Positions 2,211 to 15,003 of a DNA stretch of 22,560 nt are shown piece by piece (the stretch's first letter is position 1; each line of letters starts with the position of its first letter). The notes under the pieces were generated by a model, which was not told the origin of the DNA, did no database searches, and saw only the letters and a program-made list of their open reading frames with translations. Where the stretch lies: positions 1 through 22,560 of IMG/VR virus record IMGVR_UViG_3300046167_000340; one strand, given 5' to 3'. The position numbers and the translations under genes are program-made. This stretch comes from a virus.

Positions 2211-2272
2211 ATATACCACTATTAATTGCCATCCTGATTGGCTCAATGAATTATGCAACCATTTGTTATTAA
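2207..2272 (+). CDS. Possible hydrophobic micro-protein (21 aa)
   Basis: An ATGA overlap with the preceding stop leads into a 21-codon frame encoding a mostly hydrophobic peptide (IPLLIAILIGSMNYATI). The overlap would allow translational coupling. The frame is too short for its length to be evidence, so this rests only on junction geometry and hydrophobicity. It is the second hydrophobic mini-frame in this cluster, after the one at 1876. Confidence 0.25.
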   Translation: MNIPLLIAILIGSMNYATICY

Positions 2273-2284
2273 AGGATAATTAAA

Positions 2285-2626
2285 ATGAACATCAAAGAAT
2301 ACACAGTCGAAGAATTAATAAACATAAAAGAAAATGCTTTATCAAGTGCCAGAACTACAGCCCTCCAGTACTTGGAGGAGAATGGAGAAGATCCGTACTG
2401 TGGTTTCGCATGGGTTAATATCTATGGAATAAAGGGCAGTACAACCCTGGGTAGACGTATGAAAAAGGCAGGATTTGAAAAAGATTATTCGGGTGCATAC
2501 TCTATCTGGAACCCTAGTGGATTGGGCACACAGTCCATGAATGTGAAAGAAGCAGGTGCACAGGCGGCCGCTAAAGTTTTTCAGGAAGCAAACTTTAAAT
2601 GTTATGCAGGTTCAAGGGCAGATTAG
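2285..2626 (+). CDS. Conserved hypothetical phage protein (113 aa)
   Basis: An AAAGGATAATTAAA leader precedes the ATG. The N-terminal 40 residues are helical. The core has FAWVNIYGIKGSTTLGRRMK and then KDYSGAYSIWNPSG, ending with an A-A-KVF helix and YAGSRAD. This set of motifs (W-V-N-I-Y-G-x-K-G, Y-S-G-A-x-S-I-W-N-P-S-G, Y-A-G-S-R) is familiar to me from a widely spread phage family found in many Pseudomonas and marine phages. To my knowledge it has no assigned function. Confidence 0.7.
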   Translation: MNIKEYTVEELINIKENALSSARTTALQYLEENGEDPYCGFAWVNIYGIKGSTTLGRRMKKAGFEKDYSGAYSIWNPSGLGTQSMNVKEAGAQAAAKVFQEANFKCYAGSRAD

Positions 2627-2637
2627 GAGAATATAAT

Positions 2638-2808
2638 ATGAGTGCAATTAAAAATTGGATTATGGATATGGAAGAAGACCTAGAGGATGGCTTCACCAGA
2701 GAACAGATGGAAGAAAAGCATGGGTATGATGGTGCCTATAGGTATGATTGCTACCATGGGTATGAAACTTTAAACAACAGGAGAATTACTAATGAAGATA
2801 GATATTGA
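2638..2808 (+). CDS. Hypothetical small acidic phage protein (56 aa)
   Basis: The ATG at 2638 is chosen because AGGAGAATATAAT lies just upstream; an earlier in-frame codon at 2599 lies inside the previous gene. The protein begins with an acidic helix (MDMEEDLEDGF), followed by REQMEEKHGYDGAYRYDCYHGYE, rich in Tyr and Gly. No family recognised. It overlaps the next gene by 17 nt. A 21-nt segment of it (2703-2723) recurs exactly at 8142-8162. Confidence 0.6.
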   Translation: MSAIKNWIMDMEEDLEDGFTREQMEEKHGYDGAYRYDCYHGYETLNNRRITNEDRY

Positions 2809-3079
2809 AAAGTATATTCGAGGCCAACAGATCAAGGAGATCATTAAGAATTACTACAAGGATACCGATGTAGTAGTTACCTTTGAGGATGACGAGTACA
2901 TAAGCATTACTAAGGGTACATATGGTGTCTTGGTTTCTTTAAAAGATTGGGTGTCGTGGAAGATAGACCGTAATCTTATACAGAATGTACTTCCTGACAT
3001 GAGCCTGGATCAAAGAGAGTTTCTAATTTCAGGCATGACACCGACTGACTGGCTCACATACCAACTGACTGGAGTGTGA
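2792..3079 (+). CDS. Conserved hypothetical phage protein (95 aa)
   Basis: The start ATG follows CAGGAGAATTACTA. The final third reads DMSLDQREFLISGMTPTDW. This REFLISG-x-T-P-x-x-W signature occurs at the C-terminus of a common family of small phage proteins, which I know only as hypothetical. The N-terminal part is predicted to be mixed helix and strand. The stop codon lies inside the first copy of the 19-bp repeats, so this gene ends the early cluster and borders the control region. Confidence 0.7.
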   Translation: MKIDIEKYIRGQQIKEIIKNYYKDTDVVVTFEDDEYISITKGTYGVLVSLKDWVSWKIDRNLIQNVLPDMSLDQREFLISGMTPTDWLTYQLTGV

Positions 3080-3130
3080 CATTTATAACACAGTGTGACA
3101 TTTATAACACAGTGTGACATTTATAACACA
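3074..3130 (+). repeat. Three tandem 19-bp repeats (possible iterons or operators)
   Basis: Three perfect head-to-tail copies of GTGTGACATTTATAACACA at 3074-3092, 3093-3111 and 3112-3130. Each copy begins TGTG and ends CACA, so both single copies and copy junctions are partly symmetric. They are followed by the palindrome GTGAT-N6-ATCAC at 3131-3146 and then AT-rich DNA up to the promoter at 3184. The first copy includes the stop codon of the preceding gene. Such arrays are typical of binding sites for an initiator or repressor. Which applies here is not decidable from sequence alone. Confidence 0.85.
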
Positions 3131-3183
3131 GTGATATATTAATCACAATCTAAATTAAAATGAACGTCAGTGTAAATTAAGTA

Positions 3184-3212
3184 TTTACTTTGATAAAGAT
3201 TTATGATATAGA
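3184..3212 (+). promoter_or_regulatory. Candidate sigma70-type promoter of the replication block
   Basis: TTTACT at 3184-3189, a 17-nt spacer, and TATAGA at 3207-3212 with TG one base upstream of the -10 (extended -10 form). Each hexamer matches consensus at four of six positions. Transcription would start near 3219, immediately before the inverted repeat at 3226. It is the only reasonable promoter between the early genes and the primase block. Confidence 0.5.
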
Positions 3213-3225
3213 TACCTATATAGTT

Positions 3226-3270
3226 TACCCTTAAGAAGAAAGACATTAAAGTTAATCAGTCTTAAGGGTA
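3226..3270 (+). promoter_or_regulatory. 11-bp inverted repeat forming a 5'-leader hairpin
   Basis: TACCCTTAAGA (3226-3236) and TCTTAAGGGTA (3260-3270) are perfect complements separated by 23 nt. A third related arm, ACCCTAAGG, follows at 3272-3280 and can compete for the 3' arm. No T-run follows, so this does not look like a simple terminator. Placed between the candidate promoter and the start codon at 3295, it would be a leader structure affecting mRNA stability or attenuation, or a DNA-level operator. Confidence 0.65.
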
Positions 3271-3294
3271 CACCCTAAGGTAATAAAGGATAAG

Positions 3295-3444
3295 ATGATG
3301 ACTAATGAACATGAGCATGAAGAAGACTACCTACAGGAACTACTAAAAGAGTATGGTATAGAAGAGATGTTATCTAAGAATGATACCCTTGAAGATACTA
3401 TACTACCACCACAGGATGAACTACCCGAATGGTTGAAGGACTAA
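3295..3444 (+). CDS. Small acidic protein (49 aa)
   Basis: Starts at a double ATG (3295 and 3298) preceded by AAAGGATAAG and ends at TAA 3442-3444. The protein is strongly acidic: Glu/Asp residues dominate, and it ends ELPEWLKD. First gene behind the 3184 promoter, immediately ahead of the replication genes. Acidic mini-proteins in this position in phages can be DNA mimics or inhibitors of host enzymes, but that is only an analogy. No family recognised. Confidence 0.6.
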   Translation: MMTNEHEHEEDYLQELLKEYGIEEMLSKNDTLEDTILPPQDELPEWLKD

Positions 3445-3490
3445 TAATCCTCGTAGATTTCATGATTATAACTTTTAAGGAGCACTACTA

Positions 3491-3757
3491 ATGAGCAAAC
3501 AAGAATTAATAGAAGATAATATTGCACTACCTATCATGTGGGCATCGACTGCTGATGTAAGCCATGATAACGATGTTGAAATGAATAACTATATCGACTG
3601 TACAGAGACGTTGACGTTGAGTGTATTGAAATGCCCAGTTGATATTGGCTTTGACTTTGTTATGGTTACTGACCCTGACAAACCGTACACACAACGGACA
3701 GGGTGGATGGTGATGTCGGATGTAGAGGAGTGGAATGAGGAGAACTTAAGTGACTAA
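3491..3757 (+). CDS. Hypothetical acidic phage protein (88 aa)
   Basis: An AAGGAGCACTACTA leader gives a strong ribosome site. The protein is acidic, has no membrane span or signal peptide, and shows no motif I recognise. A beta-rich middle (TLTLSVLKCPVDIGFDFVMV) suggests a small globular fold. The end overlaps the next gene by 8 nt, indicating coupled translation into the replication operon. Confidence 0.6.
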   Translation: MSKQELIEDNIALPIMWASTADVSHDNDVEMNNYIDCTETLTLSVLKCPVDIGFDFVMVTDPDKPYTQRTGWMVMSDVEEWNEENLSD

Positions 3758-4028
3758 GGTATATGAAGTAACAAGAAGCTACACAACGTGTGAAGTACAT
3801 CTTGTTGAAGCTAACAACGAAGAAGAAGCAAAAAAGAAAGTGGTTGTACTAGGACAGTACACTACGCAAAAGAGTTATGATGGTGATTACGATGACCTGG
3901 TGACCGTTTCGGAAGTAACAGACAGTTTTGATACCTATGAGTATTGTGAGGAGTGCAACTGCATCCTACGTTGGAATGAGGCTGAGACTTTATGTAAATC
4001 ATGCGAAGAAAGAAAGGAAGAAGGATAG
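3750..4028 (+). CDS. Small protein with C-terminal zinc ribbon (92 aa)
   Basis: The start is a GTG at 3750, supported by GAGGAG about 8 nt upstream. Residues 1-65 look like an alpha/beta segment with a VHLVEANNEEEAKKKV stretch, as found in small phage proteins carrying an N-x-E-E-A repeat of strand and helix. The C-terminus holds CEECNC and, about 15 residues on, CKSC, a CxxC...CxxC zinc-ribbon arrangement. It may bind nucleic acid or a replication protein. Its stop overlaps the primase start by one base. Confidence 0.65.
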   Translation: MTKVYEVTRSYTTCEVHLVEANNEEEAKKKVVVLGQYTTQKSYDGDYDDLVTVSEVTDSFDTYEYCEECNCILRWNEAETLCKSCEERKEEG

Positions 4029-5659
4029 TGGGAACACTTGTAGATGAACAGATGCCGTGCCCTATGTGCCCTAGTAGTGATGCCTACTACACCTATGAAG
4101 AGGATGATGGCAACATCGTAGGTCACTGCTACTCATGTAATAATACTAATAAAGTATCGGGTGACTACGTGCCTGAGAAAGGAACTAAGATGACTCAAAA
4201 GAAAGAACGAACCATGTTGTGTGGCACACCAGAGGACTTACCCTCACGTAGGCTGACCATAGATACTTGTAAGAAGTTTGATATTGGTATTGGTAATGTC
4301 GATGGCAAGAGGTATGAAACCTTTGGTTACTATCGTGATGGACTTAAGGTTATGTCTAAGGTGCGTGGCCCTAATAAATGCTTCAACCCTCGTGAGGATC
4401 CAAGGTGTGGCCCAACAGGTGAGACTAATGCGGCAGTACTCTTTGGTATGCAATCCTTCAAGCCTAACCCTAACAAGAGTATCACCATTACAGAGGGAGA
4501 GTATGATGCGGCATCCTACTACCAGATGACTACCTTCCCTGCTGTATCTGTACGATCAAGTGGACAGGCACTCAAGGATGTTGAGGCTAACTATGAATGG
4601 CTCAATGGATGGAAAGAAGTGGTGATATGCTTTGATAGTGATGAACCTGGAAGGAAGGCTGCCCGTCTGATAGCATCTAAGTTCCCAGGTAAGTGTCGTG
4701 TCATGAAGATGACTTCACACAAGGATGCTAGTGATTATCTTGTCGCAGGGCACATCGAAAAGTTTAAGCAGGAATGGTTCGAAGCTCAGGCAATTAAGGT
4801 AGATGGCATGATTACAGGGGTATCATCCATCATGAAGTTAGCCATGAAGAAACCACAGAAGGGCATCTCTACAGTATGGGATGGTCTGACTAGTATAACC
4901 AGAGGTGTAAGGCTTCAAGAGGTGTGGACTATTGGTGGTGGTACAGGACTTGGTAAGTCTGAGACACTGAAGGAATTTCTGTTTGATATCATGAAGGTAC
5001 ACAAGCTTAAGACAGGTAGTATAATGCTAGAAGAAAGTAGTGAGCGTACTGTTCAGTGCTACCTTGGTAAGGAACTTAACAAGAGATACTACTTGGAGGA
5101 CGTTGAGTTTCCAAGTGATGCTGAGCTGATGGATGCGGCCACAACCCTTGCACCCTACATGACTATCGCAGACAGGTGTAAGTCTGAGTGGTCTGAGGTC
5201 AAGTCTAAGATTGAGTACATGGTTAATGCACTAGGTATTCAGTACATATGTATTGATCACCTGACTGCAATAGCAGAGGGTAAGTCTACTGATGTAAACA
5301 GTACACTACACAAGATCCTTGAAGACTTGAACCACATGGCTGTCGCACTTAATTGTACGTTCTTCTGTGTTAGTCATCTTAATCAGGCCGCAAACAAAAA
5401 CTACACTGAGGGAGCACATGTATCCTTACGTGACTTCTATGGTAGTGGTGCCATCATGCAACGCAGTAACTTTGTATTCGGATTTGAGGGTGACCTTGAG
5501 GGTGAGAAGATACCAAAGAATACTCGTATCATGCGATGCCTTAAGGATCGTAATGCAGGTGATGGTGGTGGTAAGAAAGTCTTACTCAAGTATGACATTG
5601 AAACAGGTAGACTCAATGAGTTTGAAGCAGAGAGTGATGAGGAGATAGAAGATGAATGA
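4028..5659 (+). CDS. T7 gp4-like DNA primase-helicase
   Basis: Bifunctional replisome enzyme that primes the lagging strand and unwinds DNA as a hexamer. The GTG at 4028 is preferred: it overlaps the upstream stop, follows AAGGAAGAAGGATA, and puts the zinc finger at the N-terminus; ATG 4001 is the alternative. Numbering from the GTG, the zinc-binding cysteines are C11, C14, C34 and C37. The TOPRIM primase core has TEGEYDAAS (E157) and DSDEPGRKA (D203, D205). The DnaB-type helicase has Walker A GGGTGLGKSE (K310) and Walker B-like ICIDHL, with VSHLNQ after it. The tail is acidic (ESDEEIEDE), as in T7 gp4, where it contacts polymerase and SSB. At 543 aa it is near the usual T7-like length. Polymerase and SSB genes follow in the same direction. 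Confidence 0.95.
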   Translation: MGTLVDEQMPCPMCPSSDAYYTYEEDDGNIVGHCYSCNNTNKVSGDYVPEKGTKMTQKKERTMLCGTPEDLPSRRLTIDTCKKFDIGIGNVDGKRYETFGYYRDGLKVMSKVRGPNKCFNPREDPRCGPTGETNAAVLFGMQSFKPNPNKSITITEGEYDAASYYQMTTFPAVSVRSSGQALKDVEANYEWLNGWKEVVICFDSDEPGRKAARLIASKFPGKCRVMKMTSHKDASDYLVAGHIEKFKQEWFEAQAIKVDGMITGVSSIMKLAMKKPQKGISTVWDGLTSITRGVRLQEVWTIGGGTGLGKSETLKEFLFDIMKVHKLKTGSIMLEESSERTVQCYLGKELNKRYYLEDVEFPSDAELMDAATTLAPYMTIADRCKSEWSEVKSKIEYMVNALGIQYICIDHLTAIAEGKSTDVNSTLHKILEDLNHMAVALNCTFFCVSHLNQAANKNYTEGAHVSLRDFYGSGAIMQRSNFVFGFEGDLEGEKIPKNTRIMRCLKDRNAGDGGGKKVLLKYDIETGRLNEFEAESDEEIEDE

Positions 5660-5840
5660 TCTAGATGAGGGTTGCATCTGTGGTGAGGAGCATCGTATAT
5701 GGGTTCCTTACGGTGATGGCCCGACTGATGAGGAGTTTGAAGCGATGACTGAAGAGGAGTACTCTGTTCACTGGGATAAACGACCTTGGTACTGTGCATC
5801 TTGTGGCTATGATGTAACACATCTTATAAGAAAGGAATGA
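5652..5840 (+). CDS. Small zinc-ribbon-like protein (62 aa)
   Basis: Overlaps the primase-helicase gene by 8 nt and lies just ahead of the polymerase. It has an N-terminal CICGEEH and a C-terminal CASCGYD, a spacing compatible with one structural zinc site. The middle is acidic (GDGPTDEEFEAMTEEE). No enzyme motif. Position between helicase and polymerase suggests a replication accessory role, but this is inference from neighbours only. Confidence 0.6.
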   Translation: MNDLDEGCICGEEHRIWVPYGDGPTDEEFEAMTEEEYSVHWDKRPWYCASCGYDVTHLIRKE

Positions 5841-5842
5841 TC

Positions 5843-7933
5843 ATGAGGAAAGTAATATATGATATCGAAGCTAACAGCCTTACACCTACTAGGATCTGGT
5901 GTGTTGTAGCTAAGGATATTAACACTGATGAAGTGTTTACTTTCTTAGAGGATGACAAGGATAAGTTTGTTAAATTTTGTTCTGAAGTTCAACAGTTTAT
6001 AGGTCACAACATCCTTCAGTATGATAACTATTGGATGAATAAATTATGGGGTACTAACATTACAGTTGACCAGACACTTGACACTCTCGTGCTTTCTCGA
6101 CTGCTTAACTCTTGTAAAGAAGTTAAGGGTAAGATTGAACTTAAACGTGCCAAGAACCAACACTCTCTTCAAGCATGGGGTGATGGACAGTGTGCCGATT
6201 GGTATGATAAAGAGTTTACTATAGAGGAGGAGAAGTTATCCCCCTCGTTTCCTGATCTAACTGACGCAGTTGACTACGCCATGAAGATAAACAATTCGGA
6301 GAACATGAAGGCATCTCTTCCTTATAACGAATGGAAGGACGATGAACTATCCCATTACCACGATTTGTCTAACTACTACTTGGAAGATCATGACAGACCT
6401 ATGGAGTCCTGGGTGGTGCCTTATACAGTTTCTCGTAAGGAAGTTAGAAAGGTTAACCGATACTCAAAGATAGACTTTAATGAGTTTGATAAGTACACAC
6501 CTGAGATGTTGGTCTATTGTAAGCAGGATGTTGAGCTAAACCATAGAGTGTACTGTGAACTTAAGAAAGAAAGTAAGGGCTTTTCTTATCAAAGCATCAG
6601 GCTTGAGCATGCCCTCCAGGATATTCTTTGTAATCAAATGCGTAATGGATTTAAGATAGACGTTCCCTCTGCTAAAAGATTATTAGATAAATGCTCCACT
6701 AAGTGTAAAGAACTAGAGCAACAGATGCAGAAAGACTTCCCACCCGTGGCTAAACTCAAGAAAACTTATACTCCAAGGTTTAATTCTGATGGAGTAACTC
6801 ACAACATGGCATCCCTAGGACCTATGAAAACAGCCTATGGTTTTCAGTATAAGGGTGAAGCCTACAGTTATATAGATTGGGTTCCCTTTAATCTTAGCAG
6901 TCCAACACAGGTGGTAGAAAGACTGGAAGGACACTGGGATCCCAAGGAGAAGACAACTAAGGGTGCATACAAACTATCAGATAAGAACATTGCAACCATT
7001 AGAGATACTGCACCAGATAGTATCAAACAAATTAAACTATATCGTATGTACTCATCACGATGTAACGAACTTAAACAATGGATAGAAGGAGCAGAAGAAC
7101 ATGAAGATAGGAGACTTAGGGGACGTATTGTCCACATTGGTAGCTGGTCTGGTAGGGCTAGTCATTCTAAGCCTAACACTGCTAATATTTCTAGCGTGTC
7201 TATGCGTAAACTTAATGATGGATCAGGTAAGAAAGTTCCAGTCATGGGTGAAGAAGGTGGCTTTGGGTGGGAATGTCGATCCGTCTGGACAGTAGAAGAG
7301 GGTAATGTTCTTGTCGGTTGTGATGCATCGGGTATTCAACTACGAATACTTGCACACTACCTTAACAATCCAGTATATACTAAGGCTGTACTCAATGACA
7401 TTCATGACTTCAATGCTAAGACACTGGGTGTTAGTCGTGATGATGCTAAGACATTCATCTACTCCTGGCTACTAGGTGCAGGAGTTGTTAAGACTTCTGA
7501 GATACTTAACTGTTCAGTTTCTGAGGCTGTCAAGAAGAGAGAGAAGTTTGTTAACCTGACCCCAGGACTTGGAGACTTCTTAAAGATTAAGACTTTGATG
7601 GCTGATCGTGGTTGGTACCTTGGTCTTGACGGACGTAAGGTCTACCTACCTAGTGATCACCTGGCACTGACAGCATACCTTCAGAATGGTGAGCATGTTA
7701 TAATGGCACTGTCTAATATCTACTGGACTAAGTGGGCCAAGCAGAGAGACATACCGTTCAAGCAGTGTGGTTACATACATGATGAGTGGCAGGTTGAGAC
7801 ACCCACTAAGTATGCTGATACACTAGGCAACCTCATGAAACAATCGTTTCGAGTAGCAGGTGAGTATCTTAAACTTAACTGTCCATTAGATGGAGAATAT
7901 AATGTTGGAAGAAACTGGGCAGAGACCCACTAA
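5843..7933 (+). CDS. Family A (T7 gp5-like) DNA polymerase with 3'-5' exonuclease
   Basis: Replicative polymerase. ATG 5843 is chosen because AAAGGA lies at normal distance; ATG 5837 would sit one base from it. Exonuclease motifs are DIEANSL (D7, E9), FIGHNILQYDN and YCKQDVE, so proofreading looks intact. Polymerase motif A is CDASGIQLR (D494), motif B RDDAKTFIYSWLLGAG (K536, Y540), motif C YIHDEWQ (H646, D647, E648). The residue equivalent to Klenow F762/T7 Y526 is Tyr, as in T7. The position equivalent to Klenow E710 is Gln (Q499) and that of Y766 is Leu (L544), both unusual. The segment corresponding to the T7 thioredoxin-binding insertion is present but shorter. Length 696 aa, close to T7 gp5. 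Confidence 0.95.
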   Translation: MRKVIYDIEANSLTPTRIWCVVAKDINTDEVFTFLEDDKDKFVKFCSEVQQFIGHNILQYDNYWMNKLWGTNITVDQTLDTLVLSRLLNSCKEVKGKIELKRAKNQHSLQAWGDGQCADWYDKEFTIEEEKLSPSFPDLTDAVDYAMKINNSENMKASLPYNEWKDDELSHYHDLSNYYLEDHDRPMESWVVPYTVSRKEVRKVNRYSKIDFNEFDKYTPEMLVYCKQDVELNHRVYCELKKESKGFSYQSIRLEHALQDILCNQMRNGFKIDVPSAKRLLDKCSTKCKELEQQMQKDFPPVAKLKKTYTPRFNSDGVTHNMASLGPMKTAYGFQYKGEAYSYIDWVPFNLSSPTQVVERLEGHWDPKEKTTKGAYKLSDKNIATIRDTAPDSIKQIKLYRMYSSRCNELKQWIEGAEEHEDRRLRGRIVHIGSWSGRASHSKPNTANISSVSMRKLNDGSGKKVPVMGEEGGFGWECRSVWTVEEGNVLVGCDASGIQLRILAHYLNNPVYTKAVLNDIHDFNAKTLGVSRDDAKTFIYSWLLGAGVVKTSEILNCSVSEAVKKREKFVNLTPGLGDFLKIKTLMADRGWYLGLDGRKVYLPSDHLALTAYLQNGEHVIMALSNIYWTKWAKQRDIPFKQCGYIHDEWQVETPTKYADTLGNLMKQSFRVAGEYLKLNCPLDGEYNVGRNWAETH

Positions 7934-7949
7934 AAGGAGGATAAAGACA

Positions 7950-8189
7950 ATGCCTAAGACTGTTAAGATTACAGATAGAATGATCCATTTACAATATGAC
8001 TATGCGATAACTCCTATGGGTATTTACTTATCGGATGGGGCTTACTTAAGTCCCCAAGAATACTATGCAATGGATAATCAGATTTTCGACTGGGAGTATG
8101 TGGGTAAAAAATATAAAGATCACTACGGTTATGACGAGGAGACAGATGGAAGAAAAGCATGGAGAAGAAAGAGCCAAACGCAACTGTGA
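7950..8189 (+). CDS. Hypothetical small phage protein (79 aa)
   Basis: ATG 7950 follows a strong AAAAGGAGGATAAAGACA leader; an in-frame codon at 7890 lies inside the polymerase gene and is unlikely. The protein is Tyr-rich (IYLSDGAYLSPQEYYAMDN, WEYVGKKYKDHYGYDEE) and ends in a basic tail. No family recognised. It is the last gene before the promoter at 8221. Confidence 0.55.
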   Translation: MPKTVKITDRMIHLQYDYAITPMGIYLSDGAYLSPQEYYAMDNQIFDWEYVGKKYKDHYGYDEETDGRKAWRRKSQTQL

Positions 8190-8220
8190 TATCAATGGTT
8201 GTTTTTGAGAATATTAATAC

Positions 8221-8249
8221 TTGACAGACTAATCAAGATGTGCTATAAG
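8221..8249 (+). promoter_or_regulatory. Strong sigma70-type promoter (HTH-SSB operon)
   Basis: Perfect TTGACA at 8221-8226, a 17-nt spacer, and TATAAG at 8244-8249. Transcription would start near 8256, giving a leader with the hairpin at 8265 and then the HTH gene at 8300. It would also serve SSB and the nucleases downstream. Confidence 0.85.
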
Positions 8250-8264
8250 AGTTCATCATAAAGA

Positions 8265-8295
8265 GAACCATTACGGTTCATACATTTGGAGACTA
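8265..8295 (+). promoter_or_regulatory. Leader hairpin plus GGAGACTA ribosome site, copy 1
   Basis: GAACC (8265-8269), loop ATTAC, GGTTC (8275-8279) form a perfect 5-bp stem. Eight nucleotides later comes GGAGACTA (8288-8295), the ribosome site of the HTH gene. The same element with identical spacing precedes SSB at 8578-8608. The shared geometry suggests a translational control element acting on both genes. Confidence 0.65.
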
Positions 8296-8299
8296 CACC

Positions 8300-8566
8300 A
8301 TGACTAACGCTGAATATGTTTTACAAGAGCTACAAAAAGGACGTACAATAACAAGACGAGATATCTATAATGAGATTGGATACTTTAAAACTCCTACTGC
8401 AGTCAGTAGACTGAGAGCTGAAGGACACAACATAAAAGGTACGTCAGTTAAGTTTACTAATATTTTAGGAAATAAATGTAGATATCATTCTTATGTCCTT
8501 GAAGAAACATATGAGAGTAAAGATGAGGATACACTATTACAGAGTGATCTCTTTTCATCACAATAA
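8300..8566 (+). CDS. Winged-helix/HTH DNA-binding protein (88 aa)
   Basis: Residues about 3-50 (YVLQELQKGRTITRRDIYNE, then a VSRLRAEGHNI recognition-helix-like segment) match the small helix-turn-helix family that includes HTH_39-like phage proteins: a first helix, T-x-x-D-I motif, S-R-L-R-x-E-G-H-x-I, then a beta wing (YHSYVLEE). The C-terminus is acidic. It is the first gene behind the strong 8221 promoter and carries its own leader hairpin, so it may be an autoregulator or control the SSB operon. This regulatory role is inference; DNA binding is a family expectation. Confidence 0.75.
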   Translation: MTNAEYVLQELQKGRTITRRDIYNEIGYFKTPTAVSRLRAEGHNIKGTSVKFTNILGNKCRYHSYVLEETYESKDEDTLLQSDLFSSQ

Positions 8567-8577
8567 TTTATTAAACA

Positions 8578-8608
8578 GAGCCGCTAAGGTTCACATAACA
8601 GGAGACTA
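8578..8608 (+). promoter_or_regulatory. Leader hairpin plus GGAGACTA ribosome site, copy 2 (SSB)
   Basis: GAGCC (8578-8582), loop GCTAA, GGTTC (8588-8592) form a 5-bp stem with one G-U pair. GGAGACTA (8601-8608) follows after 8 nt, as in the copy at 8265. The stem position that differs (A to G) keeps pairing, which favours an RNA structure. SSB translation is the direct target. Confidence 0.65.
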
Positions 8609-8613
8609 TACTA

Positions 8614-9186
8614 ATGGCCAACACACAAACATTCAAGACTTTAAAGCTAGATGGAGAAGCCCTCTACCTGAAGCCCTGGCAGAACCAACGGGGTGAACTC
8701 TATGGTCCAACTGATAGGGATCAGTATGAGGTTACACTTGTTAACCTTACAGAGGAATCAATGGCTGCAGCTAAGGCAGCAGGACGAGCACCTACTGTCT
8801 CTAGTCCTAACTCAAGTAAACACAACGCAGGTATCCTTGAGTACTACAAAATTACATCTCAATACCCTATTAAGTTTGCTGATTCACAGGGTAATCCTAT
8901 TGAGGATGGAACTCATGTGGGTAACGGAAGTAAGATACGTGTCTACGTTGAGGTTCGTGAGATCAGTAAGGAGTATCAGAAGGGTAACACTCACAAGTTT
9001 TATGCTACTGCTGTTCAACTTATTAAACTGGTAGAGATGCCAGAAGATCCAAACTTTGTAGCCAGTGGTGGTGTACAGTTTGATAAGGTTGATAACGGGT
9101 ACGTTACAACAGCACCAGAGGCTAATGGATTTACTGAAGTAAAGCCTGAGTTTGATACGATAAGTGATGATGAGATACCGTTTTAA
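8614..9186 (+). CDS. Single-stranded DNA-binding protein, T7 gp2.5-like
   Basis: 190 aa, the usual size of T7-like SSBs. The start has GGAGACTA upstream. The OB-fold body includes LYGPTDRDQYEVTLVNL at about residues 29-46, an Ala-rich helix (SMAAAKAAGR), and IRVYVEVREI near 107. The C-terminus is an acidic tail ending in an aromatic residue (DTISDDEIPF), the hallmark by which gp2.5 docks on polymerase and helicase. It coats ssDNA and organises the replisome. The stop codon TAA overlaps the ATG of the exonuclease by one base. A leader hairpin shared with the HTH gene suggests translational regulation. Confidence 0.85.
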   Translation: MANTQTFKTLKLDGEALYLKPWQNQRGELYGPTDRDQYEVTLVNLTEESMAAAKAAGRAPTVSSPNSSKHNAGILEYYKITSQYPIKFADSQGNPIEDGTHVGNGSKIRVYVEVREISKEYQKGNTHKFYATAVQLIKLVEMPEDPNFVASGGVQFDKVDNGYVTTAPEANGFTEVKPEFDTISDDEIPF

Positions 9187-10052
9187 TGGCGGTCCAAAAA
9201 GACATTGAAACCCTGGTGGATGATATCTATGACATGTTTAGAACAGGCAAAGACTTCACCCCAGGGGACACGGCAGAGCTGGCCTCACGGTTAGCTCGTG
9301 CCATCACCAAGAAGTTTAAGATTAGGAAAGGTCCTGCACGTAGGGATAAGCTACGTCCCTCTAACATAGGCCAACCTGATAGGCTTCTGTACTTTAATGT
9401 CAAGGCTGATCCTATTGAGGATAAGTTTGCACCTGAGCAGTTGCTTAACTTTCTCTATGGTGATATCTGTGAGGAGCTTATGTTATGGTTAGCAGAACAA
9501 TCAGGACATGAAGTAACTCATATGCAACATCCTGTTAATGGGTATGGTTTAAGGGGCTACATGGACTGTAGGATAGACGGTAAGAATGTTGATGCTAAGT
9601 CTGCTTTTGCCGCTAACTTTAAGAAGTTTAAGGATGGTTCGATCAAGGCACCAGGAAAGGATCCTTACGGTTACATTGCTCAACTGTCTTACTACGAACA
9701 GGTCCAAGGGGGTAGTGACACAGCATACTTTTTTGCCTTTAACAAGATTGGATCTTTGGCACTAACCGCTGTCAATCCTGTGGAACAGGTCAATGCTGAG
9801 GCAAGAGTTAAACACCTTACTGAAATACTTAAGAAGGATGAGCCACCCGAAGAGTTATGTTATGAGCCTGAGCCTGATGGTAAAGCAGGTAACATGAAGC
9901 TTGGTATCCACTGTAGTAGGTGTGATCACAAACGTAAGTGTCATCCTGACTTAAGAACTTTTGCCTACAAACCATGGAGGTATCTAACTCATGTTGAGAA
10001 GCTACCAAAGGTTGAAGAGGTTTTACCTATCGAAGAAGTTGAGCCAGCATGA
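9186..10052 (+). CDS. PD-(D/E)XK exonuclease, RecB/Cas4-like, with C-terminal Cys cluster
   Basis: 288 aa. The N-terminal region has RPSNIGQPDR, a conserved entry motif of phage RecB-type nucleases. Then come YGDICEELM (E96/E97), GYMDCRID (D127), NVDAKS (D136, K138) and YIAQLSYYEQ (Q166, Y169/Y170). Together these form the E, D, D-x-K and Q-xxx-Y pattern of the PD-(D/E)XK nuclease core. The C-terminus carries four cysteines, one in EELCYE and three in HCSRCDHKRKC. They could hold a zinc or Fe-S cluster, as in Cas4/AddB, but the usual N-terminal cysteine is replaced (GQPD). Likely role: host DNA degradation or end processing and recombination with SSB. Starts one base inside the SSB stop. Confidence 0.85.
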   Translation: MAVQKDIETLVDDIYDMFRTGKDFTPGDTAELASRLARAITKKFKIRKGPARRDKLRPSNIGQPDRLLYFNVKADPIEDKFAPEQLLNFLYGDICEELMLWLAEQSGHEVTHMQHPVNGYGLRGYMDCRIDGKNVDAKSAFAANFKKFKDGSIKAPGKDPYGYIAQLSYYEQVQGGSDTAYFFAFNKIGSLALTAVNPVEQVNAEARVKHLTEILKKDEPPEELCYEPEPDGKAGNMKLGIHCSRCDHKRKCHPDLRTFAYKPWRYLTHVEKLPKVEEVLPIEEVEPA

Positions 10053-10495
10053 AACACCACTGGAAAGGGCTGACACCTAACCCTAGTAAGTACTTTGGAT
10101 TTACTTATGTTATCAATGAGTTACCTACCAGTAAGTACTACGTTGGTAAGAAACAGTTTTGGATATCTAGTGGTAAGGTTAAGAAGGGTAGCCTCAGGCC
10201 TAACAAGTCAGAGGCTACCTGGAACCCACTTCACTGGAAGGAATCTAATTGGGCTTCATATACAGGTTCATCTAAGGAATTGAATAAGTTAATTAAGTCT
10301 AACCCTAAGAACTTTAAGTACATTATTATCGGACAGTACACATGTAAGGCTGACTTAGTTTACGCAGAATGTAAAGCTCAGTTTGACTACGATGTTATGG
10401 TTGCAAGGGATAAGAGTGGTGATCGCCTTTCCTACAATAAACAAATTGCAGCTATTAGGTTTATCCCACCCTGGAAAGATAGAGAAGAGTTATGA
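10049..10495 (+). CDS. GIY-YIG-like endonuclease
   Basis: 148 aa, overlapping the exonuclease by 4 nt. The N-terminus has FTYVINELPTSKYYVGKK, which fits a diverged GIY-YIG signature (TYV ... YVG). It is followed by W-x-SYTGSSKELNKLI and an IIGQY strand, then YAECKAQFDYDV with the likely catalytic Glu, and YNKQI. Phages encode related nucleases with this K-Y-(I/V)-G-K-K...Y-x-G-S-S pattern. Likely a structure-specific or nicking endonuclease functionally similar to the T7 endonuclease in the same part of the genome, though the fold differs. The enzyme class is fairly confident, substrate unknown. Confidence 0.7.
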   Translation: MKHHWKGLTPNPSKYFGFTYVINELPTSKYYVGKKQFWISSGKVKKGSLRPNKSEATWNPLHWKESNWASYTGSSKELNKLIKSNPKNFKYIIIGQYTCKADLVYAECKAQFDYDVMVARDKSGDRLSYNKQIAAIRFIPPWKDREEL

Positions 10496-10755
10496 GTACA
10501 AATAAACATAAGATAATGACTAAGTTGCACGATACTTCTGAGTTCAATGATGCAGTTAATCTTTTGATTACGATTGAGGATAATAAACTTATTATAGTTC
10601 CTTACGGAGGGACCTTTGACAACACACCTACTGAACAGGCTCGTGAAGTTTATCAGTTAGTTACATTACTTCTTCAAGTATTTGATGACTACGGTGGTGT
10701 TTCAGTTACAGATGATATGCTATCACAGCACATGAGTTCAAACATAAAACATTAA
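10492..10755 (+). CDS. Hypothetical phage protein (87 aa)
   Basis: Overlaps the GIY-YIG gene by 4 nt (ATGA), so it is translationally coupled. It starts with a basic stretch, has a beta-like LLITIEDNKLIIVPYGG segment and a helical EVYQLVTLLLQVFDDY segment, and is otherwise featureless. No family recognised. Operon position between two nucleases is the only clue to function. Confidence 0.6.
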   Translation: MSTNKHKIMTKLHDTSEFNDAVNLLITIEDNKLIIVPYGGTFDNTPTEQAREVYQLVTLLLQVFDDYGGVSVTDDMLSQHMSSNIKH

Positions 10756-10766
10756 AGGATATAGAA

Positions 10767-11552
10767 ATGGATAAACAAATTAAAATACTAACCTATGACA
10801 TAGAGACAGCACCTAAGTTGGCCAATGTCTGGGATATCTGGAATCAAAACATCCCTCCAAGTATGATGATGGAGGATGGATACATTCTAAGTTGGGCAGC
10901 TAAGTGGCTTGATTCAGATGAGATCCTAAGTAACTCATTGATTGAACACGATAATAAGATTGAGAATGAGGGCAAGATGGTTAAAGAACTCTACGATCTT
11001 ATGGAAGAGGCTGATGTCCTGGTGGGTTATAACTCTGATAAGTTTGACAGGAAGCATGTGAACACGGCATTCCTAAAGGCAGGGCTGACACCTCCCTCAA
11101 CCAGTAAGTCTATTGATCTCTTCAAGGTTGTCAAGTCTAACTTTAAGTTTACTTCTAATAAACTAGACTTTGTTCTTGGCAAGCTTGGTATTAAACAAAA
11201 GCTAAACCACAGAGGGTTTGACTTATGGAAAGGTTGCATGGAGGGAGACATGGAGTGTTGGGCTGAGATGGTAGAGTACAATGAACAGGATGTTGAAGTG
11301 ACTGAACTTCTTTACAAGAAGCTTCTACCCTGGATCAAGAACCACCCTTGTCGTAGCATGTACACGGATACTATAAACCTTAAACCTTCATGTAACAACT
11401 GCGGATCTACAAGGGTAATTAAGAAAGGATTAGAAGTACTTAAGTTTACATCTTACCAGAGATACAAGTGTACAAACTGTGGTAATAATATGAGAGGCAA
11501 GGAACTTCAGAATAGTCCAGAGAAAAGAAAAAGTATCTTAGTAAATGTGTAG
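10767..11552 (+). CDS. DnaQ-like 3'-5' exonuclease fused to a C-terminal zinc ribbon
   Basis: 261 aa with an AAAGGATATAGAA leader. The first ~190 residues form an RNase H-like DEDD exonuclease: YDIETAP (D11, E13), VLVGYNSDKFD (Exo II) and YNEQDVEVTELLY (Exo III, Y-x3-D). The C-terminal part has CNNCGS ... CTNCGN around a KFTSYQRYK linker, a zinc ribbon like those of transposases and HNH/homing nucleases. This is a second proofreading-type nuclease besides that in the polymerase. It likely processes DNA or RNA ends during replication or recombination; the ribbon would target nucleic acid. Last gene before the promoter at 11570. Confidence 0.85.
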   Translation: MDKQIKILTYDIETAPKLANVWDIWNQNIPPSMMMEDGYILSWAAKWLDSDEILSNSLIEHDNKIENEGKMVKELYDLMEEADVLVGYNSDKFDRKHVNTAFLKAGLTPPSTSKSIDLFKVVKSNFKFTSNKLDFVLGKLGIKQKLNHRGFDLWKGCMEGDMECWAEMVEYNEQDVEVTELLYKKLLPWIKNHPCRSMYTDTINLKPSCNNCGSTRVIKKGLEVLKFTSYQRYKCTNCGNNMRGKELQNSPEKRKSILVNV

Positions 11553-11569
11553 ACTTGTGGAGAATTATC

Positions 11570-11598
11570 TTGACAAATAACTTAAATTATGGTATAAC
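11570..11598 (+). promoter_or_regulatory. Strong sigma70-type promoter
   Basis: TTGACA at 11570-11575, 17-nt spacer ending TTATGG, and TATAAC at 11593-11598. It drives the short lipoprotein gene at 11629, which is closed by the terminator at 11970. The CTTGACAA ... TTATGGTATAA pattern is repeated in the promoter at 11992. Confidence 0.85.
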
Positions 11599-11628
11599 TA
11601 TTATACTTAAATACTCAAAGGAAATTAA

Positions 11629-11952
11629 ATGAAACTACTTGAAAATTTAAAAAAAGAAATTAAACAAATTATGGAGTGGAGAAAGTATGGCCGCAATACT
11701 CAGATTGCACTAGCTACACTCTTTGTTTTGATTGCCTTGCTTCTAATAACAGGTTGTTCTAGTTCTAAAGCTTACGCTGATGAGCTTACTGTTGAGGCCG
11801 TAGAAGAGGTTACTGTAGAAAAAACTAAAGAAGAAGATAAAGAAGGGCCTGTACTTAAAGACGTAGAGGGTAGTATCCCAAAGCTTACTTTAGTCGAACC
11901 TAATCCAGAGACTCCTCAACGGGTTTCGATAAGGTACTCTGCCCCCTACTAG
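11629..11952 (+). CDS. Small lipoprotein with long cytoplasmic-like N-terminus (107 aa)
   Basis: AAAGGAAATTAA precedes the ATG. Residues 1-25 are basic and amphipathic (LKKEIKQIMEWRKYGR), followed by a hydrophobic segment (IALATLFVLIALLLITG) leading into the lipobox LITGC. The Cys is at about residue 43. The mature part begins SSSKAYAD and is acidic and low-complexity (VEAVEEVTVEKTKEEDKEG), with Pro/Thr-rich end. It looks like an envelope lipoprotein translated as its own transcription unit. Unusual N-terminal length: either the true start is later, at M35-equivalent ATGs, or the region is a real cytoplasmic domain. No family recognised. Superinfection exclusion is one possibility, unsupported by sequence. 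Confidence 0.65.
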   Translation: MKLLENLKKEIKQIMEWRKYGRNTQIALATLFVLIALLLITGCSSSKAYADELTVEAVEEVTVEKTKEEDKEGPVLKDVEGSIPKLTLVEPNPETPQRVSIRYSAPY

Positions 11953-11969
11953 CTTGATCTACTAAAACT

Positions 11970-12010
11970 AAAGGGCTTGTAAAGGTAACTCTTGACAAGC
12001 CCTTTCTTTT
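11970..12010 (+). terminator. Rho-independent terminator overlapping the next promoter
   Basis: AAAGGGCTTGT (11970-11980) pairs perfectly with ACAAGCCCTTT (11995-12005), 11 bp around a 14-nt loop, followed by CTTTT. It lies 18 nt after the lipoprotein stop. The 3' arm contains part of the TTGACA -35 box of the next promoter. Confidence 0.85.
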
Positions 12011-12020
12011 ATGGTATAAG
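11992..12020 (+). promoter_or_regulatory. Strong sigma70-type promoter (DUF3310-RNR operon)
   Basis: TTGACA at 11992-11997, 17-nt spacer, TATAAG at 12015-12020. The -35 box lies inside the 3' arm of the preceding terminator, so read-through from upstream is stopped exactly where the next unit begins. A second TATAAT at 12028-12033 has no matching -35 box. Confidence 0.85.
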
Positions 12021-12058
12021 GATATCATATAATGATACTAAAATAAAAAGGAAATGGC

Positions 12059-12232
12059 ATGGACTGTTGGCACTGTAGAACGGAACTTATATGGGGTGGA
12101 GACATTGACGTAGAAGACATGGTACTAGGAGATATGATACACAGCAATCTATCCTGTCCTAATGAAGATTGCAGGGCCATGTATGAAGTGTACTTGCCCT
12201 TACAAAAGGAGAAAAATCATGAGCAAGACTAA
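12059..12232 (+). CDS. Small zinc-ribbon protein (57 aa)
   Basis: ATG 12059 follows AAAAAGGAAATGGC. An overlapping 19-codon frame at 12054 is less likely. The protein opens with CWHC and has CPNEDC near the middle, so CxxC...CxxxxC could bind one zinc. The C-terminal half is acidic. It overlaps the DUF3310 gene by 14 nt, consistent with coupling in the nucleotide-metabolism operon. Function unknown. Confidence 0.6.
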   Translation: MDCWHCRTELIWGGDIDVEDMVLGDMIHSNLSCPNEDCRAMYEVYLPLQKEKNHEQD

Positions 12233-12494
12233 AGAAGATCTGGTAAACCAACCCCCTCACTACACACAGGGAAGTATTGAGTGTAAGGATGCGATGATTG
12301 CAGCATTCGGTAGAGAGAAGTATGAAACCTTTTGTAAATTAAATGCTTTTAAATATCTATGGAGGAGTGACCATAAGGGTAACTCTACACAAGACATCGG
12401 TAAGGCTAAGTGGTACATGGATCAGATAGGTGCAAAACATACAAGCATAGTGCCGTATCCAAGAAGAGGGAATAAATTTGATGCTGACATTTAA
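12219..12494 (+). CDS. DUF3310-family protein (91 aa)
   Basis: ATG 12219 is chosen because AAAAGGAGAAAAATC lies just before it; an earlier in-frame codon is inside the previous gene. It has the family's VNQPPHYTQGSIECKDAM start, then FCKLNAFKYLWRSDHKGNS, and AKWYMDQIG. This N-x-P-x-H-Y ... G-x-I-E ... N-A-x-K-Y-L-W-R ... D-x-x-K-A-x-W-Y pattern is diagnostic of DUF3310. The family is common in phages and sometimes annotated as a nucleotide kinase, but its activity is not established. Co-transcription with a ribonucleotide reductase fits a nucleotide-metabolism role. Confidence 0.9.
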   Translation: MSKTKEDLVNQPPHYTQGSIECKDAMIAAFGREKYETFCKLNAFKYLWRSDHKGNSTQDIGKAKWYMDQIGAKHTSIVPYPRRGNKFDADI

Positions 12495-12648
12495 ACGAGT
12501 AACAGATGAAGACAGTGGAATGGATCTATACACATCTTACGGTAGCAACGGTGCTATCCTGGAGAAAGACTTAGATCATTGGACAGTCACAAGGATAATG
12601 AAGTACTTAGATATTTCAAATGTAACTTATAAGGAAGAAGACGAATGA
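12481..12648 (+). CDS. Hypothetical small protein (55 aa)
   Basis: ATG 12481 overlaps the DUF3310 gene by 14 nt, with AGAGGG about 11 nt upstream. The stop TGA 12646-12648 overlaps the ATGATG start of the RNR gene. The protein is mixed alpha/beta and acidic (ILEKDLDHWTVTRIMKYLD, ending KEEDE). No motif recognised. The overlaps on both sides argue for a real coupled gene. Confidence 0.55.
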   Translation: MLTFKRVTDEDSGMDLYTSYGSNGAILEKDLDHWTVTRIMKYLDISNVTYKEEDE

Positions 12649-14561
12649 TGAATGACTATCAAAAGTTTATAGCTATCAGTAGGTATGCCAGGTATAAAGA
12701 TGATGAAGGACGAAGAGAAACCTGGGAAGAAACTGTTGATCGTTATATGGAAAACATGAGTGACCACCTTTCTAAAAAGGTCAACTATAAAATTTCAAAA
12801 AGGATGTATGGTGAGTTACGTGACGCAATAGTTAACCTTGAAGTTATGCCTAGTATGCGTACCCTAATGACAAGCGGCCCTGCCCTCACTCGTGATAACA
12901 CATGTGCTTATAACTGTGCTTATACTGCAGTAGACAGTCCTCGTGCATTTGATGAATCTCTATACATCTTGATGTGTGGTACTGGTGTAGGCTTCTCAGT
13001 CGAAAGGCAGTACGTTAACAAACTTCCTGAAGTAGCAGAGCACTTTGAAAAAACTGACAGCACCATCCACGTAGCAGACAGTAAGTCTGGTTGGGCCAGA
13101 GGGCTTAAAGAATTAATTAGTATGTTGTATGCAGGACAGTCACCTAAGTGGGACCTGTCAGCAGTGAGACCTGCAGGAGCAAAGCTTAAGACTTTTGGTG
13201 GACGCTCGTCTGGACCAGGGCCTCTTGATGATCTGTTTACTTTTACTACTAAGATCTTTAATGAAGCAAGAGGACGTAGACTTACATCTATTGAGTGCCA
13301 TGACATCATGTGTAAGATTGGTGCAGTGGTAGTAGTAGGAGGGGTCAGACGATCCGCAATGATATCCCTATCTAATCTAAGTGATGATAGAATGAGACAC
13401 GCCAAGCACGGACAGTGGTGGGAACAGCACGGTCAGAGAGCACTGGCCAACAACAGTGTAGTCTATACGGATAAGCCTGATATGGGTGCGTTTATGAGGG
13501 AATGGGAGAGCCTGTATTCCAGCCAGTCTGGAGAGAGGGGAATCTTTAATCGTGAAGCATCACGAAAAAAGGTTGGAGAAAATGGACGCAGGGATACTGA
13601 ACATGAATTTGGAACTAATCCCTGTAGCGAAATTATACTTAGACCACAGCAATTTTGTAACCTTAGCGAGGTTGTTGTCAGACCTGGCGATGACTTCAAA
13701 ACTCTACAAAAGAAAGTTAAACTTGCTACAATCCTGGGCACATTCCAATCAACACTGACAGACTTCAAGTATCTGCGTAAGGTGTGGACCAATAATACTG
13801 AGGAAGAGAGACTACTTGGTGTTAGTATGACAGGCATCATGGACAATACTCTTACTTCTAGTACTGGTGGAGTTAGATCACCTAGCCTCGACACACTGTT
13901 AGTCAAACTTAAAGAGACTTGTGTTGAAACAAATAAAAATTTGGCTAAAGAATTATCTATCCCACAGTCTACTGCTATTACTTGTGTTAAACCTTCTGGT
14001 ACTGTTAGTCAGCTCGTTGACTCTGCTAGTGGGATCCACCCAAGATTTTCAGAATACTACATTCGAACTGTCAGAGGAGATATCAAAGACCCCTTAACTG
14101 ACTTTATGATTAGTAAAGGTATCCCATTTGAACCTGCCTTTGGAGCAGAAAAAAGTACAGTTGTGTTTAGCTTTCCACACAAGTCACCAAAAAATGTAGC
14201 TATACGTGATCAAGGTACTGCTATTGGTCAGCTTGAACTATGGTTAGCATATCAACGACACTGGTGTGAGCACAAGCCATCTATTACAGTCTATGTTAGG
14301 GAGCATGAGTGGATGGAGGTTGGTGCATTTGTATGGAAACATTTTGATGAGATGTCAGGCGTTAGCTTCCTCCCGTATGACAATGGCACATACAAACAAG
14401 CTCCCTACCAGGAGTGTACTAAGGAGGAGTATAAGGCAGCCCTAGCTCTGATGCCTAAGGAGATTGACTGGAGTGCATTTAAAGAAGAAGAAGACAATAC
14501 AGTAGCATCACAAGAGCTAGCCTGTGCAGGTGGTGTGTGTGAGGTTGTAGACGTTTCATAA
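12645..14561 (+). CDS. nrdJ: Class II (adenosylcobalamin-dependent) ribonucleotide reductase
   Basis: Reduces ribonucleotides to deoxyribonucleotides for phage DNA synthesis, using host adenosylcobalamin; no separate radical-generating subunit is needed. 638 aa, somewhat shorter than the ~740 aa monomeric Lactobacillus type. Residues visible: NCAY (C91, redox partner), MCGTGVGFSVE, VVGGVRRSA, the radical site NPCSEI (C327, E329, N325) and QQFCNLSEV (C338), the phosphate-binding CVKPSGTVSQ, and a C-terminal reducing pair CAGGVC (C627, C632). All expected catalytic cysteines are present. Start at the ATGATG overlapping the preceding stop. No thioredoxin or NrdAB gene lies in the window, so host thioredoxin would regenerate it. 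Confidence 0.93.
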   Translation: MMNDYQKFIAISRYARYKDDEGRRETWEETVDRYMENMSDHLSKKVNYKISKRMYGELRDAIVNLEVMPSMRTLMTSGPALTRDNTCAYNCAYTAVDSPRAFDESLYILMCGTGVGFSVERQYVNKLPEVAEHFEKTDSTIHVADSKSGWARGLKELISMLYAGQSPKWDLSAVRPAGAKLKTFGGRSSGPGPLDDLFTFTTKIFNEARGRRLTSIECHDIMCKIGAVVVVGGVRRSAMISLSNLSDDRMRHAKHGQWWEQHGQRALANNSVVYTDKPDMGAFMREWESLYSSQSGERGIFNREASRKKVGENGRRDTEHEFGTNPCSEIILRPQQFCNLSEVVVRPGDDFKTLQKKVKLATILGTFQSTLTDFKYLRKVWTNNTEEERLLGVSMTGIMDNTLTSSTGGVRSPSLDTLLVKLKETCVETNKNLAKELSIPQSTAITCVKPSGTVSQLVDSASGIHPRFSEYYIRTVRGDIKDPLTDFMISKGIPFEPAFGAEKSTVVFSFPHKSPKNVAIRDQGTAIGQLELWLAYQRHWCEHKPSITVYVREHEWMEVGAFVWKHFDEMSGVSFLPYDNGTYKQAPYQECTKEEYKAALALMPKEIDWSAFKEEEDNTVASQELACAGGVCEVVDVS

Positions 14562-14581
14562 ATTAGTATGGAGGATATGTA

Positions 14582-14839
14582 ATGAAAGACTCTTATGAAG
14601 TAATAGATGTAGAGCAAGGAAACAAAGACAATACAGTAATGGAGGACTTAATCCATCGCCCTAAGGTGGATCTTCATTACCACGATGACCTTGATGGACG
14701 TACAGGGATTACAATAAGAAAGACTTATCTTAATAGAAACGATATAGTTAAGGGCTCAGTAGTTACAGATCCTTCAGTAACAATCGTACTGAAGTTTATA
14801 CAAGAAGCCTTAGCCGCACTAAACAAAAAGGAAATTTAA
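14582..14839 (+). CDS. Hypothetical phage protein (85 aa)
   Basis: A strong TATGGAGGATATGTA leader precedes the ATG. Residues about 25-40 read IHRPKVDLHYHDDLDGRTGI, then a VTIVLKFIQEALAALNKK helix. No family recognised. It follows the RNR gene and ends one base into the next start, so it belongs to the same operon. Confidence 0.6.
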   Translation: MKDSYEVIDVEQGNKDNTVMEDLIHRPKVDLHYHDDLDGRTGITIRKTYLNRNDIVKGSVVTDPSVTIVLKFIQEALAALNKKEI

Positions 14840-15003
14840 TGGTAGATATTACAAGAGTAGCTTGCAAGCCTAAGGTACCTCATCAACTTAAGATGATGGC
14901 AAAAAAGATCTTGCGTAAACAAAACGGTACTGCTGATGATTGGAGAGACTTAGTGGATCAAACACACGAGGAGGTAATGAATGTCCCTGACAGTAACAGA
15001 TAA
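14839..15003 (+). CDS. Hypothetical small basic protein (54 aa)
   Basis: ATG 14839 overlaps the preceding TAA by one base, with AAAAGGAAATTTA upstream. The protein is helical and basic in its first half (CKPKVPHQLKMMAKKILRKQ) and acidic in the second. Its 3' end overlaps the next gene by 23 nt in another frame. No family recognised. Confidence 0.5.
   Translation: MVDITRVACKPKVPHQLKMMAKKILRKQNGTADDWRDLVDQTHEEVMNVPDSNR

Follow-up and report, generated by a model that had tools for sequence, protein, structure and literature searches.

A promoter-leader module with a conserved inverted repeat, present in two copies around an HTH gene upstream of ssb in a cobavirus-like virus record

Introduction

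Why do two neighbouring phage genes, one encoding a small HTH protein and the other a single-stranded-DNA-binding protein (SSB), begin with nearly the same leader? Both genes are found in a 22,560-base IMG/VR virus record, the whole of which is called the window below. In each leader a short inverted repeat, or dyad, that can pair as a 5-bp stem is followed at a fixed distance by the same Shine-Dalgarno sequence. A first-pass annotation of this DNA had taken the two leaders for a shared translational operator, bound by SSB or by the HTH protein.

Results

Two leader copies and the genes they precede

The HTH gene (8300 to 8566, plus strand) encodes an 88-aa winged-HTH protein assigned by profile matches to Pfam HTH_39 (PF14090, E=8.3e-5, 22.8 bits against a cut-off of 21.3) and to phrog_4973 (E=6.3e-10); its AlphaFold model, with the order HHH-EE, is of low confidence (pLDDT 52). 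The ssb gene (8614 to 9186, plus strand) encodes a gp2.5-like SSB of 190 aa with the acidic tail ...SDDEIPF. It matches phrog_112 'Gp2.5-like' (E=1.5e-6) and the profile of 1je5_A, 'helix-destabilizing protein' (E=2.4e-6), a chain which we take to be T7 gp2.5. No Pfam match was obtained for SSB, and its AlphaFold model is uninformative (pLDDT 33). A Cas4-domain exonuclease (9186 to 10052, plus strand; phrog_1990, E=1.1e-27) is the next gene after ssb, and the gene content of the window follows cobavirus order, with primase-helicase, PolA, gp2.5-like SSB, Cas4-type exonuclease and class II RNR.

Before the HTH gene, the dyad GAACC-ATTAC-GGTTC occupies 8265 to 8279 and GGAGACTA, the Shine-Dalgarno sequence, 8288 to 8295, with an 8-nt spacer between them (8280-8287) and the ATG at 8300. 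The second copy, GAGCC-GCTAA-GGTTC, is 313 bases away at 8578 to 8592, also on the plus strand, and is followed by its own 8-nt spacer (8593-8600), by GGAGACTA at 8601 to 8608 and by the ssb ATG at 8614; it lacks the conserved promoter in the window genome. The arrangement GA(A/G)CC-N5-GGTTC, 8 nt, GGAGACTA before both genes, as the first-pass annotation gave it, holds to the base. A pattern search of both strands found GARCC-N5-GGTTC at these two sites only (three matches in total, the HTH-side site being counted twice through its self-match on the other strand), against a mean of 0.04 in shuffled sequences, where three matches were reached in 0 of 100. These are also the only exact copies of GGAGACTA in the window; with one mismatch allowed it occurs at 21 places, which is chance level (20.8 expected).

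The hairpin itself is less distinctive. The isolated stems fold with -4.6 (HTH) and -5.4 kcal/mol (ssb), and at full length the two window leaders are no more stable than shuffled sequence (z -0.55 and -1.35). A stem of at least 5 bp, with G-U allowed, lies within 45 nt of the start codon at 15 of 41 gene starts, which were chosen by us, and the same was found in 659 of 2000 mononucleotide-shuffled leaders. Rfam gave no family match in the window at the gathering score. What goes beyond chance is that the two leaders match and that relatives conserve them; the hairpin alone is unremarkable. The frequency of such hairpins lends weight to a reading in which the dyad has no regulatory role: the 5-bp inverted repeat would have arisen by chance, persisted through recent descent and travelled together with promoter and Shine-Dalgarno sequence. 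This reading, which is weighed against the alignment below, also draws on the relatives being few and mostly close, and on the spacer being conserved among orthologues too.

Several features elsewhere in the window were recorded. At 3075-3131 a 19-bp unit (TGTGACATTTATAACACAG) stands three times in tandem without mismatch; the array begins at an ORF end, ahead of an AT-rich gap, and could be an origin or regulatory iteron. A run of small lysine-rich ORFs is found at 15831-16836 (minus strand); the one that was searched has no Pfam match. At 17960-22548 (minus strand) CsgF, CsgG, a curlin-like protein, FecR and a CHASE2-adenylate cyclase are encoded in a row, the curlin-like protein having no Pfam or PHROG match. 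A viral curli (T8SS) cluster that likewise includes FecR and adenylate cyclase is reported, in a part of PMC9599517, for uncultivated pelagiphages, and the row resembles it; here the row stands in a cobavirus-like record.

Relatives and history of the duplicated leader

SSB relatives were found in six IMG/VR contigs, five matching at 89-92% and one (L016, used in reverse as L026) at 70%. Over ssb and the HTH gene there is no difference between L004/L017 and L005/L019, which were counted as one observation. The first-pass annotation had named the region upstream of ssb in relatives as the place to look for the element, and there it is indeed present, in six of six contigs, with arms GAACC and GGTTC in each. 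The HTH gene was found in two of the six and not in the other four, all contigs being fragments. In those four the order is TTGACA-N17-TATAAG, 15-16 nt, GAACC-N5-GGTTC, 8 nt, GGAGACTA, ssb ATG. In the identical pair and in the window, the promoter and one leader stand before the HTH gene and a second leader, without that promoter, stands before ssb; one of the two HTH-bearing contigs begins inside the promoter. As the alignments have it, the likeness of the two leaders is one of common descent, with one promoter-leader module in two copies around an inserted gene. Since the HTH gene sits inside the ssb promoter-leader, a shared leader need not mean co-regulation. One half of the proposed shared translational operator is thereby retained, namely a single element common to both leaders and conserved before ssb; the other half, co-regulation, is not needed, and the leader stands before ssb in the four contigs where no HTH gene was found.

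Between the window and L019 the HTH gene has 98.1% nucleotide identity, with 32 of 32 four-fold sites the same, and ssb has 90.2%, with 62 of 74. Because the HTH gene is 98% and ssb 90% identical between the same two genomes, the HTH gene has spread recently. In segments of 60 nt, 57-60 positions are identical from 8221 to 8610 and 49-59 beyond. The PolA end (7801-7920) is also 55-60/60 identical to L019, with unaligned small-ORF sequence in between, so that the cassette has a sharp edge on the ssb side only. We infer that the cassette entered by recombination within the shared promoter-leader. The stretch from PolA to the ssb promoter (7890-8220) differs among genomes, holding a 99-aa ORF in the window, other sequence in L024 and almost nothing in L022 and L025, and is possibly a cassette hot spot.

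The predicted promoter upstream of the leader

A predicted sigma70-type promoter with an extended -10 (TTGACA-N17-TATAAG, TGn before the -10) lies at 8221 to 8249 on the plus strand. The perfect pattern TTGACA-N14-TGn-TATAA occurs three times in the window, always on the plus strand (8221, 11570 and 11992), where none is expected, and sites with one mismatch lie at 156-183 (plus, within an ORF) and 17957-17930 (minus, before the holin gene). Counted against a promoter is that, with up to three mismatches allowed, 15 extended -10 matches face 14.3 expected, which is chance. A general promoter scan was at chance as well (40 in total against 42.5), and the 8221 site is missing from its list because the scan rule requires T as the last -10 base; a promoter-like match (10/12) inside the HTH gene, at 8320-8349, where a further promoter for ssb might lie in HTH genomes, is to be read against that chance-level total. 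In the window, L019, L022, L024, L025 and L026 (five distinct sequences) the hexamers and the last seven spacer positions are invariant, and 7 of the 17 spacer columns vary at a fixed length of 17. From the position of the -10 alone, transcription would start near 8256-8257, and the HTH-side dyad would then lie at about +8 to +10. The distance from the -10 to the dyad is 15 nt, but 16 in L026.

Neither the remaining two perfect extended -10 promoters (11570, 11992) nor the one-mismatch promoter before the holin gene (17957-17930) is accompanied by a GAACC-N5-GGTTC dyad, and a general leader device was rejected on this ground. A promoter for a phage RNA polymerase is unlikely, as the dyad-leader is unrepeated at other genes in the window (about half of the genome); a passage of PMC6775973, which describes SIO1 as having no RNA polymerase, also counts against it. 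An intrinsic terminator was rejected too, since the dyad is terminator-like on the minus strand only (8279-8265); a terminator scan of 1-16000 gave 4 sites against 9.1 in shuffles. The second extended -10 promoter (11992-12019) forms a separate similarity island at 11961-12019 in L019, L025 and L026, and the flanking stretches vary in these contigs.

Constraint on the dyad

Variation was counted in seven leaders, six of them distinct, with the L019 HTH leader omitted as identical to that of the window. The variable columns are 1 of 10 in the stem, 4 of 5 in the loop, 5 of 8 in the spacer, 8 of 14 upstream, 2 of 5 after the Shine-Dalgarno sequence and 0 of 8 within it. The stem varies less than the columns elsewhere without the Shine-Dalgarno sequence (19/32; Fisher p=0.0098), also when the upstream part is left out (11/18; p=0.016), in tests that are small and post hoc, made after seeing the alignment, and that treat columns as independent. 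L026 and L022 agree at all 10 stem positions and at 36 of 60 four-fold sites in ssb; at that four-fold-site identity, a 10/10 match of the stems has a probability of 0.006. Constraint on the stem columns is thus supported by the alignment, and both results speak against a dyad that is kept by recent descent with no role, which we consider unlikely.

Over all eight leaders both half-sites are invariant in seven (five of six distinct rows), and four of the five centre columns vary. The Shine-Dalgarno sequence GGAGACTA is the same in all eight, and its distance from the dyad is always 8 nt, though the spacer varies in sequence, the HTH spacer differing from the ssb spacers at 4-5 of 8 positions. 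The only stem change is the GAGCC of the window ssb copy, which is away from the promoter; the ssb copy of L019 is intact. That this single difference keeps a G-U pair was noticed in the first-pass annotation, and it appears as the one G-U cell of the leader alignment. As for compensatory change, none of the five pairs is altered on both sides and four never vary, which on six distinct leaders is evidence neither for pairing nor against it.

RNA readings of the hairpin

Two readings would have the dyad work in the mRNA. According to the first, the ssb transcript has a short stem-loop near its 5' end that makes 5'-end-dependent decay slower and leaves the ribosome site accessible, the sequence of the stem being secondary. 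The stem-loop would begin about 8-10 nt from the predicted 5' end, all eight leaders keep the five pairs (one as G-U), the spacing from hairpin to Shine-Dalgarno sequence is constant, and centroid folds leave the leader downstream of the hairpin mostly unpaired; 5' UTR stem-loops are moreover described as mRNA stabilisers in a part of PMC7509114. However, the arms show no compensatory change and are invariant over a divergence that changed four of the five loop columns, whole leaders do not exceed shuffles in stability (z -0.55 to -1.48), and the ssb copy of HTH genomes, which lies within the transcript, is kept nonetheless (intact in L019). We regard such a stem-loop as possible, if somewhat unlikely.

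The second is the translational operator of the first-pass annotation, in which SSB, in the manner of T4 gp32, or the HTH protein would bind the leader hairpin and repress its own translation. The same hairpin and spacing before the HTH gene and ssb, the presence of the element before ssb in all six related contigs, and the near identity of the L026 and L022 ssb leaders from hairpin to start codon (23/24) agree with it. The T4 gp32 operator, as described in a part of PMC535899, consists of a pseudoknot of ~28 nt and an adjacent tract of >40 nt with UUAAA/UAAA repeats and the RBS. Both were looked for here and neither was found, so that the leader does not qualify as an operator of the T4 gp32 type; a looser analogy of function may still hold. 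Watson-Crick matches of 4-5 nt from the loop to the next 60 nt are absent from four of the eight leaders (both HTH leaders, window ssb and L026); the other four have a CTAA-TTAG match reaching into the coding sequence, with a second 4-nt match in L019 ssb, and no loop-to-downstream pairing is common to the leaders. The aligned leaders have just 20-21 nt between hairpin and start, with no UUAAA or UAAA in them. Further points against self-repression are that SSB is gp2.5-like, that the HTH spacer departs from those of ssb, that the window ssb copy carries the only changed stem, and that four of the six contigs, which are fragments, yielded no HTH gene. A narrow literature search, which is no proof of absence, found no report of gp2.5 autoregulation. 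We judge this operator quite improbable. A sequence-specific RNA operator for self-control by the gp2.5-like SSB or the HTH protein, combined with a promoter-leader that acts as landing pad for pre-wired cassettes, appears at least as doubtful.

A putative promoter-proximal DNA operator

The reading that we place first, ahead of the 5' mRNA stem-loop and then of translational control by SSB or the HTH protein, is that the dyad is a promoter-proximal DNA operator; it is proposed tentatively. In this model the ssb operon would have a 5' control region made up of a promoter of the host sigma70 type, the 15-bp dyad at about +8 and the fixed Shine-Dalgarno sequence. The dyad would work as DNA, its two 5-bp half-sites having their centres 10 bp apart, about one helical turn. 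Bound there, just past the start site, a dimeric repressor of HTH type would keep the ssb operon from being transcribed. The candidate regulator is the HTH protein where it is encoded; elsewhere another regulator, from phage or host, would have to act. In some genomes, as the comparison shows, the HTH gene lies inside the control region, so that promoter and one dyad-leader serve it and the second is left before ssb.

We favour the DNA operator because the arms are fixed in sequence and the centre is free, with a half-site spacing of 10 bp just after a promoter whose hexamers never change although its spacer varies at 7 of 17 positions. It is favoured also because the stem columns vary less than their surroundings without compensatory change, because the sole arm change, a single event, is in the copy away from the promoter, as would be expected of a site needed only beside a promoter, because promoter, dyad and Shine-Dalgarno sequence stand directly before ssb in the four of six contigs where no HTH gene was found, and because the other extended -10 promoters of the window are without a dyad. 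The conserved symmetric half-sites around a free centre at a conserved promoter are what an HTH operator would present; a candidate cognate regulator is encoded with the site in just two of the six contigs, which are fragments. Several observations count against it. The dyad-to-Shine-Dalgarno distance is fixed at 8 nt and the -10-to-dyad distance is 15 or 16 nt, which slightly favours RNA; GAGCC in the window breaks the DNA symmetry and keeps a G-U pair; the ssb copy in L019 is intact and only six leaders are distinct; and the dyad is kept in the four fragmentary contigs without a detected HTH gene.

A known host operator, either a LexA (SOS) box or an MqsA-like antitoxin operator, might have been borrowed by the phage. 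The Caulobacter LexA box, GTTC-N7-GTTC (passages of PMC12700426 and PMC9578287), is built from a half-site that also occurs in GAAC-N7-GTTC, and the MqsA operator AACCT-N3-AGGTT (a passage of PMC4894380) has a similar core. The half-sites are inverted here, whereas they are direct in the Caulobacter box, and the alphaproteobacterial direct repeat GTTC-N7-GTTC is not what the phage site presents; nor does the phage dyad contain an AACCT half. Borrowing of either kind seems to us very improbable.

Distribution beyond the clade

Cobaviruses (Zobellviridae, Cobavirinae; Siovirus P12053L, SIO1 and ICBM1) share with the window the order PolA, ssb-position gene, Cas4 exonuclease and, further on, class II RNR, and their exonucleases are 25.6-40.4% identical to that of the window; their ssb leaders, however, are without GAACC-N5-GGTTC and look unrelated by eye. 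The hairpin is absent from eight distant ssb-position leaders (P12053L, ICBM1, ICBM3, SIO1, CRP-13, CRP-9, CRP-4 and T5S1), whose genes were called SSB by position and, in several, by an acidic ...IPF tail, with no family search behind it. Outside this count are phiM6, where the start is uncertain, and Pseudoalteromonas phage HP1; FJ867914 (L062) resembles SIO1 at the ssb-position leader, and in HTVC115P and HTVC104P the exonuclease follows PolA with no annotated gene in between. TTGACA occurs within 110 nt upstream in all eight distant leaders, in some as part of the PolA stop, and TACAAT 17 nt after it was seen by eye only in the four Siovirus leaders P12053L, ICBM1, ICBM3 and SIO1. Three Siovirus leaders (L032, L039, L061) carry an inverted repeat ACACA-N6-TGTGT over TTGACA and spacer, possibly a separate operator, and SIO1 has a different inverted repeat.

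When ssb, HTH, PolA and the exonuclease subunit of the polymerase served as queries in wider searches, nothing was added to these contigs except L008-L014, where ssb matches at 41% over 85 residues and the element is absent from 460 nt upstream; phage isolates gave no ssb match at E 1e-5. Scanning IMG/VR with the long pattern yielded seven stretches, namely the six related contigs and L020, where the match is inside a 252-aa ORF; a shorter pattern yielded 18, six of the clade and 12 others, and the long pattern had three matches in GTDB contigs. For the 16 off-clade matches, the 60 nt upstream contain neither TTGACA nor TATAA, and tblastn (E up to 1) detected no SSB relative at any of their loci. 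Eight of them lie in an open frame of >200 codons and the other eight in frames of 83-174, with an ATG at most 15 nt after the match in two (L047, L051); genes at these loci are putative, and we read the matches as chance. The leader feature is ordinary in kind, modest and local to one small clade, with a neat duplication history.

Discussion

Should the dyad prove to be a genuine control site, it would mark a way in which T7-like marine phages of the cobavirus kind may use host promoters to set the timing of their replication operon. It would also be a tangible example of an operon that gained a small gene through a shared promoter-leader. Were the RNA reading true, a self-control circuit of SSB would exist outside the T4 group.

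Three other known systems each share something with this leader. The gene 32 operator of T4 and RB69 and the phage leader are both folded elements upstream of the RBS of an SSB gene, but T4 has a pseudoknot with a long UUAAA tract, whereas here a plain 5-bp hairpin stands 20-21 nt from the start of a gp2.5-like protein. An incidental parallel is the homing gene segG, a small mobile ORF just upstream of gene 32 that overlaps the operator (according to a part of PMC535899). With the stabilising stem-loops of ompA-type 5' UTRs the common feature is a short stem near the 5' end, which is a predicted one here; unlike them, the arms of the phage leader are conserved in sequence and one copy also lies inside a transcript. 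The palindromic operators of the MqsA type (a part of PMC4894380) differ from GAACC-N5-GGTTC in half-site and spacing, with AACCT-N3-AGGTT, and the cognate protein here is a candidate; the two are alike in their inverted 5-bp half-sites, their short centre and their position near a promoter.
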